DNA from: Candidatus Schneewindia gallinarum
Lineage (GTDB): Bacteria > Bacillota > Clostridia > Oscillospirales > Ruminococcaceae
Assembly (NCBI GenBank): GCA_904420175.1
Contig: CAJFUF010000009.1
Span: 18,385 to 82,384, forward strand
Direction: 5' to 3'
Length of the DNA stretch: 64,000 nucleotides
Position 1 is the stretch's first letter, and the number at the start of each line of letters is the position of its first letter. Shown piece after piece: positions 1,584-4,316 of this stretch. The notes under the pieces were generated by a model, which was not told where the DNA came from, ran no database searches, and saw only the letters and a program-made list of their open reading frames with translations. A program made the position numbers and the translations under genes.

Positions 1584-1590
1584 TTCGACA
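1584..1590 (-). promoter_or_regulatory. Candidate 0A box upstream of spo0A
   Basis: TTCGACA = reverse complement of TGTCGAA consensus; second near-match TGTCGAC at 1719-1725. Confidence 0.4.
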
Positions 1591-1766
1591 GTTTTCAGAG
1601 ATTTTATGTAAGAATAATACAAAAATCATCTTATATTTTATTCGAATTTGCCATAACAGAATCTCTTGCAACCTGCGGAAACACATGGTACTATAAAAAC
1701 ACAGCAAATTTCTCCAAATGTCGACAGGAAAGAGGATTTTTGTAACATGGACGGGGATGATAAATA

Positions 1767-2549
1767 ATGGAAGTAAAGAGGATCAAAGTTCTTGTTGCGG
1801 ACCGGGACAGCAACGTTGTCAGGGAGTGTAAAACCAACCTGGAGCCGTACGGGTTTGAAGTCATTGAGGGGAAAGAGGATGCGCATCAGCTTCCGGGACA
1901 AATCCGTTTGGAGCTGCCGGACGTTGTTCTGCTCAGCGTGATTTTACAGGGCTCGGACGCATTGGAGGTGATGGACAAGCTGCAGCTTAATCCGCCCGGC
2001 AAACGTCCGCTGTTTTTAATACTGTCTCCTTACGACAGCGGCTTCTTCGCAAGGGAGGCAGTGGAAAAGGGGGCCTGCGGATGGTTTGAGTTCCCGCTGG
2101 ATTTCGAGATGATGGCCTACCGTATCAAACAGCTGTACGAACGGACGTTCGGCCCGCTTGATCTGCATGTTGTCCAGCCGGAAACCACCCGGGAGATGTA
2201 TGTGACGGATGTGCTGCTTTCCATGGGAGTACCGGCGCAGAACAAAGGCTTCGGCTGTCTGCGGGTCGGCATTGAAATGGCCATTGATGACCCGAAGGTG
2301 ATGGATCAGGTTACGACGGAGCTGTATCCTGCAATTGGAAGGTACTTTGGCTCTACCCCTGCACAGGTGGAAAAGGCCATCCGCCATGCGATTGACACTG
2401 TCTGGGACATCGGCAATGCAAAAATGCTAGCGAAGTACTTTAACTACTCCTCGAAAAATCCGCGGCGCAGGCCGGTCAACAGTGAATTTATTGCCGTGAT
2501 GGCAACAAGAATCCGTATGGAGATGAAGCGGAAGAAAGTGGGTTCCTGA
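1767..2549 (+). CDS. spo0A: Spo0A-family sporulation response regulator with degenerate receiver domain
   Basis: C-terminal Spo0A DNA-binding domain (GVPAQNKGFGCLRVGIEM...VEKAIRHAIDTVWDIGN...RRPVNSEFIAVMATRIRME); N-terminal receiver fold lacking phospho-acceptor Asp. Confidence 0.92.
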   Translation: MEVKRIKVLVADRDSNVVRECKTNLEPYGFEVIEGKEDAHQLPGQIRLELPDVVLLSVILQGSDALEVMDKLQLNPPGKRPLFLILSPYDSGFFAREAVEKGACGWFEFPLDFEMMAYRIKQLYERTFGPLDLHVVQPETTREMYVTDVLLSMGVPAQNKGFGCLRVGIEMAIDDPKVMDQVTTELYPAIGRYFGSTPAQVEKAIRHAIDTVWDIGNAKMLAKYFNYSSKNPRRRPVNSEFIAVMATRIRMEMKRKKVGS

Positions 2550-2560
2550 CCACCTGTGAC

Positions 2561-2608
2561 AGGAAAGCCTGCACAAAAGCTGTGCAGGCTTTCCTGTTTT
2601 TTCTCTCG
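2561..2608 (+). terminator. Rho-independent terminator after spo0A
   Basis: AGGAAAGCCTGCACA-AAAGC-TGTGCAGGCTTTCCT followed by GTTTTTT. Confidence 0.85.
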
Positions 2609-2754: not shown

Positions 2755-3024
2755 ATGGAATCCATGGGAATCATGGGTGTGGCGGGTATCACCGTCATCT
2801 GTTATTTTATCGCGGCCGCCCTCAAGCTGACGCCGCTTGCAAACAAGTGGCTGCCCAGCATCTGCGGCCTATGCGGGGCGCTTCTCGGCATTGTCGGCCT
2901 GTTTTTTATGCCGGGGTTTCCAGCGGAGGACATCATCACCGCGCTTGCAGTGGGAATTGTCAGCGGGCTTGCAGCCACCGGAGGGCACGAGGCAGTCACG
3001 CAGCTGACAAAAAAAGAGGAGTGA
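2755..3024 (+). CDS. Phage holin-like small membrane protein (Phage_holin_5_2-like)
   Basis: 89 aa from ATG 2755 with RBS ggggag; ITVICYFIAAALK...NKWLPSICGLCGALLGIVG...ALAVGIVSGLAATGG. Confidence 0.65.
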   Translation: MESMGIMGVAGITVICYFIAAALKLTPLANKWLPSICGLCGALLGIVGLFFMPGFPAEDIITALAVGIVSGLAATGGHEAVTQLTKKEE

Positions 3025-3027
3025 ACC

Positions 3028-3061
3028 AAAGGTCCGAAGGCGTAACACCTTCGGGCCTTTT
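3028..3061. terminator. Bidirectional terminator between convergent holin-like gene and dinB
   Basis: AAAGGTCCGAAGG-CGTAACA-CCTTCGGGCCTTT. Confidence 0.8.
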
Positions 3062-4316
3062 ACTGTTTTCGGAACGGTTCCGGGTGCGCCGCATGGTCTT
3101 TACGCGGGTCCAATTTTGCCAGCTGCGGGTCCGCCAGCATAACCGCGCGCTGCACGGTAAAATGGCCGTACCGGCGGCGGATACCGTCCACCGCCTCCTC
3201 CAGCCTGTCCCGCTTTTCCCTTGCCACCTGCTCCGGCAGCAGGGACAGCTGGACGGAATCCTGAATGGACAGATTACACGCCCTGACATGCAGGCTGCGG
3301 ATGGGGACGCCTGCCCGGTGGTGACGCCTGCACAGCCCGTACGCCGTCTGGAACAGCTCCTGCGCACTGGCGGTGCGGTAGGGAAGCGGCGCCTGCCGGA
3401 CACAGGAGAAAAGTGAACTGTCCCGGATCCCCAGTTGAAGGGTGCCCGCGACAAAATGGTTTTCCCTCAGCCTTTCCGCCACACTTTCGCACAGGATGTA
3501 CAGGGTGATACGGATGTCCTGATCGCTGATAAGGTCCCGGGGCGCAGTGGTGCCGTTGCCAACGCTTTTGATAAGCAGCCGTCCGCCCTGCCTGCTGACG
3601 GGGGAGGTGTCGTGGCCGTTGGCAAAGCTCCACAGCATCAGCCCGTTTTTGCCGAGGATGGACTTCAGCGTGTTCTGGCTGGTCTGGGCCAGCTGGCCGA
3701 TGGTGTGCACACCCAGCCGGGCAAGACGGGCGGCGGTGGCGCGGCCCACAAACAGCAGGTCGCTGGCCGGAAGCGGCCACACCACCTGTTTAAAGTGCTC
3801 CCTGTCGATGACAGTGGTGGCGTCCGGCTTTTTCATGTCGCTGCCCAGTTTGGCAAACACCTTGTTGAAGGAAACACCGATGCTGGCTGTAATCCCAAGC
3901 TCGCTTTTTATCCGGCCGCGGATTTCATCCGCAATCTGCCTGCCGCCGCCAAACAGGCGGGTACTGCCGGTTACGTCCATCCAGCACTCGTCCAGGCCGT
4001 AGCTCTCCACCTGGTCGGTGTACTGCGCATAAATATCCCGCGCAGTTTTGGCACAGCGCAGGTACCGGTCGAAGTGGGGTGGGGTAAAAACAATTTCAGG
4101 GCATTTCTGGCGGGCAAGCCAAAGCGGATCGCCCGTGCTGACGCCATGTTGCTTGGCAAGGTCGTTTTTTGCAAGGACAATGCCGTGCCGTTCCTGCACG
4201 TCCCCGGCAACCGCGACGGGTTTGCCGCGGAGGATAGGATTGAACAGGCACTCCACCGAGGCATAAAAGTTATTGAAATCGCTGTGCAGAATGATCCTGT
4301 CGCCCATTGCGCCCAC
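3060..4316 (-). CDS. dinB: Y-family DNA polymerase (DinB/Pol IV type), copy 1
   Basis: DFNNFYASVE, YGLDECWMDVTGSTRLFG, GVSFNKVFAKLGSDMKKPDA motifs. Confidence 0.9.
   Translation of the reverse strand: MGAMGDRIILHSDFNNFYASVECLFNPILRGKPVAVAGDVQERHGIVLAKNDLAKQHGVSTGDPLWLARQKCPEIVFTPPHFDRYLRCAKTARDIYAQYTDQVESYGLDECWMDVTGSTRLFGGGRQIADEIRGRIKSELGITASIGVSFNKVFAKLGSDMKKPDATTVIDREHFKQVVWPLPASDLLFVGRATAARLARLGVHTIGQLAQTSQNTLKSILGKNGLMLWSFANGHDTSPVSRQGGRLLIKSVGNGTTAPRDLISDQDIRITLYILCESVAERLRENHFVAGTLQLGIRDSSLFSCVRQAPLPYRTASAQELFQTAYGLCRRHHRAGVPIRSLHVRACNLSIQDSVQLSLLPEQVAREKRDRLEEAVDGIRRRYGHFTVQRAVMLADPQLAKLDPRKDHAAHPEPFRKQ

Follow-up and report, generated by a model that had tools for sequence, protein, structure and literature searches.

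Spo0A is the master switch for spore formation, and textbook sporulation depends on its phosphate-receiving site. Phosphorylation of Spo0A is regarded as a universal gate that leads to endospore formation, and the presence of spo0A often serves to predict spore formers. In C. thermocellum, a second, diverged full-length Spo0A (Clo1313_0637 / Cthe_3087) of unknown role occurs beside the sporulation Spo0A and is 56% identical to this partner and 49% identical to B. subtilis Spo0A (PMC4890492, PMC3804516). Aspartate-less and pseudo-receiver regulators (ALR and PsR) have been reviewed (PMC4395418, PMC12632262), an example being Streptomyces WhiI, an atypical regulator with a degenerate pocket that redirects BldM by heterodimer formation (PMC4125116). 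A Spo0A-type aspartate-less receiver was not described in the ALR/PsR papers found, and a Spo0A without the acceptor Asp was not described in the open-access literature searched, subscription papers being outside the reach of that search. The gene analysed here encodes such a protein and lies in a 64,000-nucleotide stretch of DNA from a gut-type bacterium, referred to as the window. The features discussed are collected in Table 1.

Table 1. Features of the spo0A paralogue, numbered from the first letter of the window; the last line lists loci in other genomes.
Feature	Location	Strand	Remarks
Exact 0A box TGTCGAA (TTCGACA on +)	1584..1590	-	82 bp upstream of -35
Sigma-A-type promoter TTGCAA-N17-TACTAT	1666..1694	+	Occurs twice in 101 kb, both strands searched
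Palindrome TGTCGACA in predicted 5' untranslated leader	1719..1726	.	One mismatch to 0A box per strand
spo0A paralogue with pseudo-receiver	1767..2549	+	260 aa; profile matches, alignment, tree, model
Pseudo-receiver domain, residues 1-124	1767..2138	+	(beta-alpha)5 fold predicted, pLDDT ~97
Acidic pair position GAC CGG = Asp12-Arg13 (B. subtilis D10, D11)	1800..1805	+	Alignment
Acceptor codon agc = Ser57 (B. subtilis D56)	1935..1937	+	Alignment
Phe109 where conserved Lys108 sits	2091..2093	+	Alignment
Spo0A_C DNA-binding domain, residues 146-249	2202..2513	+	Complete but accelerated; recognition helix R211Q, R214K
Intrinsic terminator, 18-pair stem then T run	2558..2598	+	Paralogue ends own transcript
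Asp-less principal Spo0A examples	G080, G104, G050, G099, G117, G118, others		L012, L005, L062, L008, L017, L140

Receiver pocket and DNA-binding domain of the paralogue

The reading frame starts with ATG, has no internal stops and joins a receiver to Spo0A_C, giving the complete two-domain architecture of Spo0A. The Pfam Response_reg model scored 25.1 bits, below its cut-off of 30.2, and Spo0A_C scored 111.7 bits across the full model, compared with 60.9 and 148.7 bits, respectively, for the canonical copy of the same genome described below. The TIGR02875 equivalog cut-off of 200 bits was passed by the canonical copy (260.8 bits) and failed by the paralogue (153.6 bits).

The pocket was aligned with a B. 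subtilis Spo0A sequence whose numbering agrees with the published D56. In this numbering, D10 is retained as Asp, D11 is Arg, D56 is Ser, T86 is Ser, F105 is Trp, and K108 is Phe. The preliminary description had read three of these changes from the letters, namely Ser for the acceptor, ADR for the ADD motif, and Phe for the conserved Lys, and the alignment confirmed each of them. The change of Thr to Ser that it had listed as further damage is present as well but was found to be the usual clostridial state, as 78 of 80 Spo0As from other clostridial orders have Ser or Thr there, nearly all of them Ser; Ser86 is therefore no loss. A single sequencing error at the agc codon was ruled out since D11, D56, F105, and K108 are altered jointly. 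It is well supported that the paralogue would be unable to accept phosphate through the usual aspartyl chemistry because the acceptor Asp and the Lys are absent and Arg replaces the second Mg-binding acid; the earlier exclusion of classical phosphorylation thus stands for this protein.

The fold itself appears to be preserved. The AlphaFold2 model had a mean pLDDT of 92, with both domains confident and the linker (residues 132-139) disordered. It matched the Spo0A-DNA complex 1LQ1 with a TM of 0.90-0.92 and, in Foldseek, Spo0A receivers including 1QMP with a TM of ~0.9. Two marks of an aspartate-less receiver, a retained receiver fold and a missing acceptor Asp, were thus found.

The DNA-binding domain had been described as intact. 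This holds for its extent, since the full Spo0A_C model is covered, but not for its conserved positions, of which the paralogue keeps 33 of 52 and the canonical copy keeps 51. Across 191 Spo0As, 57 positions showed a conservation of at least 90%; 55 of these are kept in the canonical copy and 37 in the paralogue (20 lost), a better retention than its overall identity. The paralogue and the canonical copy are 39% identical in the receiver and 45% identical in the DNA-binding domain. The median identity to Spo0As of the order was 40.2% for the DNA-binding domain of the paralogue, compared with 65% for that of the canonical copy, and 25.8% for its receiver, compared with 28.0%. The most accelerated part of the paralogue is the DNA-binding domain, and the receiver has diverged no further than usual. 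In the recognition helix, E213, R217, and H218 are kept beside the two changes in Table 1. Further losses include H169Q, K195T, R226I, G237N, and T239S; the last three fall in the stretch corresponding to B. subtilis residues 225-245, which is required for sigma-A promoter activation. Given the fast evolution of this domain and the two recognition-helix changes, DNA binding may have been lost altogether.

Canonical copy, promoter, and origin of the paralogue

The host genome (1.77 Mb in 39 contigs, 86.7% complete) was searched for a second canonical Spo0A, which had been named in advance as a finding that would count against the preliminary reading. A second full-length spo0A was found on another contig (C8; L001:1459-2268, minus strand), directly 3' of the spoIVB peptidase gene, where spo0A classically lies, and retains the acceptor Asp and the Lys. 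The paralogue was therefore rejected as the sole Spo0A of the genome and is an accessory copy. The second Mg-binding acid of the canonical copy is replaced by Gly (ADG), and throughout the order this position is degenerate. A third Spo0A_C match (C29; L003:1456-1692, minus strand) was a weak partial one of 27.5 bits to a frame of 78 amino acids and, with its short length, low score, and two TGA codons within the match, was rejected as a full Spo0A. This frame adjoins small helix-turn-helix regulators.

SpoIIR, SpoIVB, and nine HisKA kinases are also present in the host genome. Ordinary Spo0A activation may persist beside the paralogue, as the canonical spo0A, the nine kinases, and SpoIIR make this possible. 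The suggestion that the lineage had rewired or lost sporulation was not borne out for the host, given these genes and the separate canonical spo0A that follows spoIVB with its Asp and Lys kept. In profile searches of this 86.7% complete genome, no match to SpoIVA was obtained and none to sigma-F above its cut-off of 321 bits; the best match to the sigma-F model, at 219 bits, is perhaps another sporulation sigma factor. These absences may reflect assembly gaps or a partial loss of sporulation.

The 338-bp intergenic region 5' of the paralogue contains an exact 0A box, where ~0.03 would be expected. The canonical spo0A is preceded by identical promoter hexamers, likewise 17 bp apart, and its exact 0A box lies 71 bp upstream of -35; within 101 kb of the host genome this promoter occurs only before the two spo0A copies. 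Among relatives, 77 of 216 spo0A-like loci have an exact 0A box in the 300 bp before the gene, compared with 6.8 expected from shuffling. The simplest reading of a promoter shared by both copies is that spo0A was duplicated together with it and that the 0A box has since been retained, and the paralogue probably remains under Spo0A control. The palindrome in the predicted leader is a candidate second 0A-type site and is suggestive only. The gene is probably transcribed on its own, given the strong terminator behind it.

On one side the paralogue is flanked by a PfkB kinase and a UTRA-domain regulator, and on the other by a holin-like protein and a Y-family polymerase. The latter two lie just 3' of it, with the small holin-like protein (Phage_holin_5_2) at 2755-3024 and the DNA polymerase at 3060-4316. 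Upstream, at L066:15902-18027, there are two similar tandem genes of ~350 amino acids that look ADP-ribosylglycohydrolase-like by eye, and these are followed by a GntR-type regulator and a PfkB kinase. SpoIVB was absent from the window and from the 18 kb upstream of it, so the paralogue lacks the spoIVB synteny of its canonical partner.

When the paralogue was compared with 299 genomes of the family, its best match was the canonical copy of its own genome (41% identity, 198 bits), followed by a Spo0A of another genus (37%). In a tree of 125 Spo0As, the two copies were paired (SH-aLRT 97) with branches of 2.56 for the paralogue and 0.71 for the canonical copy; because the tree was built rapidly and contains long branches, the pairing should be taken as likely rather than certain. 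Neither the 299 family genomes nor a scan of the named species collection yielded an orthologue. From the best match, the pairing, and the missing orthologue, the paralogue was deduced to be most likely a lineage-specific duplicate of spo0A. A mobile origin was unsupported, since matches in phage and plasmid records were at most 35% identical and the tree pairs the gene with the copy of its own genome.

Loss of the acceptor Asp across the order

The principal Spo0A was surveyed across the order of the host, one per genome and with a readable acceptor residue. The acceptor Asp was missing in 34 of 109 genomes, compared with 1 of 80 from the remaining orders of the class (Fisher p = 1.7e-8, a value that ignores relatedness and for which the control sample leans to high-scoring Spo0As). 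The residues in its place were Glu (18), Asn (12), and Gly, Ser, Ala, and His (1 each). On a tree, the best count of acceptor changes was 20, and at least 7 were forced by well-supported branches. In one small family, the three members with an identified Spo0A all have Asn at the acceptor and Met for the Lys, and in another small family Asn was present in every Spo0A with a readable receiver (one copy being partial). The sequences suggest that loss of the acceptor from the principal Spo0A has been recurrent in this order.

In G080, G104, G050, and G099 the Asp-less gene lies directly 3' of spoIVB, and from this position it was deduced to be the orthologous spo0A. The DNA-binding domains of the Asp-less Spo0As were canonical among those inspected. 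Named examples are strain HV4-5-B5C (Asn) and CCNA10 (Glu). SpoIVA was present in 30 of the 34 Asp-less genomes and in 71 of the 75 with Asp, and SpoIIR in 29 of 34 and 66 of 75, respectively. In 21 of the 34, the Asp-less Spo0A was the sole Spo0A_C match, and 16 of these 21 have both SpoIVA and SpoIIR. One genome (G001) has two full-length Spo0As that are both Asp-less, with Asn and Ala (L069 and L070). The Spo0A of Clostridium sporosphaeroides DSM 1294 (L186) keeps the Asp, while Ile takes the place of the Lys and Asn that of the first acidic residue; this species is a known spore former.

Tentatively, and at well below an even chance, sporulation entry in this large order of gut and anaerobe-type Clostridia may repeatedly have been freed from aspartyl phosphorylation. 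The sole Spo0A of many of its genomes, with Asn, Glu, Ser, Gly, or His at the acceptor, a fully canonical DNA-binding domain, and other sporulation genes retained alongside, would then work through its own level or some other input, and the paralogue would be an extreme form of this relaxation that arose in a duplicate. Since retained sporulation genes are no proof of sporulation, Asp-less Spo0As may point either to lost sporulation or to a different route into it. With the acceptor lost from 34 of 109 principal Spo0As, rewiring as suspected in the preliminary description may apply elsewhere in the order. If Asp-less Spo0As truly start sporulation in this order, the gate would work differently in many gut bacteria; if their bearers do not sporulate, the acceptor residue would be a simple sequence marker of lost sporulation.

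Proposed role of the paralogue and comparison with known systems

The absent phospho-acceptor chemistry, the full architecture, the 0A-box promoter, the terminator, and the canonical partner are direct observations on the paralogue. We hypothesized that the paralogue is induced by Spo0A and modulates the Spo0A regulon independently of phosphorylation, a proposal that we judge about equally likely to be right or wrong. Duplication of spo0A with its promoter would have given rise to a lineage-specific second Spo0A, whose synthesis Spo0A would switch on through the 0A-box promoter and which would then act without phosphorylation. It could bind Spo0A-type sites or pair with Spo0A there, with an altered DNA preference and activation surface, and the Spo0A regulon would be tuned by it, most likely damped or redirected. 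How much of it is made, and not a kinase, would determine its activity. Variants of the proposal are an antagonist, a heterodimer, and a regulator with its own targets. Should the paralogue be both Spo0A-induced and phosphate-blind, it would represent an unreported kind of feedback on the sporulation gate.

The main alternative to such a modulator is a redundant duplicate on its way to a pseudogene, in which the receiver chemistry was lost first and the DNA-binding domain is now drifting. This would fit the restriction of the paralogue to one genus among the genomes searched, its very long branch in the tree, and the loss of 20 of the 57 conserved positions. The reading frame argues against it. 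When the canonical gene was subjected to neutral change in simulation, with point changes only and indels ignored, stop-free runs made up 5.5% at 70% identity and 0.5-1.5% at 42-60% identity, so an intact frame at ~40% identity is rare under such drift. The GC content by codon position is also maintained as in a working gene (0.58/0.36/0.65 against 0.58/0.37/0.69), the 0A-box promoter and the terminator are still there, and the receiver is only as diverged as those of ordinary Spo0As. The rarity of stop-free neutral runs and the codon-position GC favour selection for the protein; with no orthologue in the genomes searched they fall short of proof, and the paralogue may be a young decaying duplicate. 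On balance, decay was considered unlikely.

In B. subtilis Spo0A, the receiver normally restrains the DNA-binding domain, and a dead receiver may be fixed in the restraining or in the released state. If the pseudo-receiver no longer inhibited the DNA-binding domain, the paralogue would be a constitutive Spo0A that turns on sporulation genes whenever it is made, and the Spo0A-type promoter before it would suit this. We regard this as quite improbable, as the acceptor is Ser and not the phosphomimetic Glu, and the altered Arg residues of the recognition helix and the altered region matching B. subtilis 225-245 argue against a faithful mimic of Spo0A. It is likewise improbable that the receiver has been repurposed as a sensor of a ligand, of Ser/Thr phosphorylation, or of a partner protein that would activate the paralogue. 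The fold is preserved around a remodelled pocket (Arg, Ser, Trp, Phe), and other families include pseudo-receivers controlled by a ligand or a partner (PMC12632262), but no partner gene adjoins the paralogue.

Compared with Spo0A as defined by TIGR02875 and B. subtilis, the paralogue has the same receiver and Spo0A_C domains, a 0A box with sigma-A-type hexamers, and the fold of 1LQ1 and 1QMP. It differs in lacking the acceptor Asp, the Lys, and the second acid, in scoring below the equivalog cut-off, in lying outside the spoIVB synteny, and in its altered recognition helix. The protein of C. thermocellum is likewise a second full-length Spo0A, and at 56% it is much closer to its partner than the paralogue is (~40%). 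With the ALR and PsR regulators the paralogue shares a receiver fold that is devoid of the phosphotransfer residues and fused to a DNA-binding domain, which in the known cases is of the OmpR or NarL type and here is of the Spo0A type. By analogy, the action of WhiI on BldM would be the nearest worked example for the mechanism of the paralogue.
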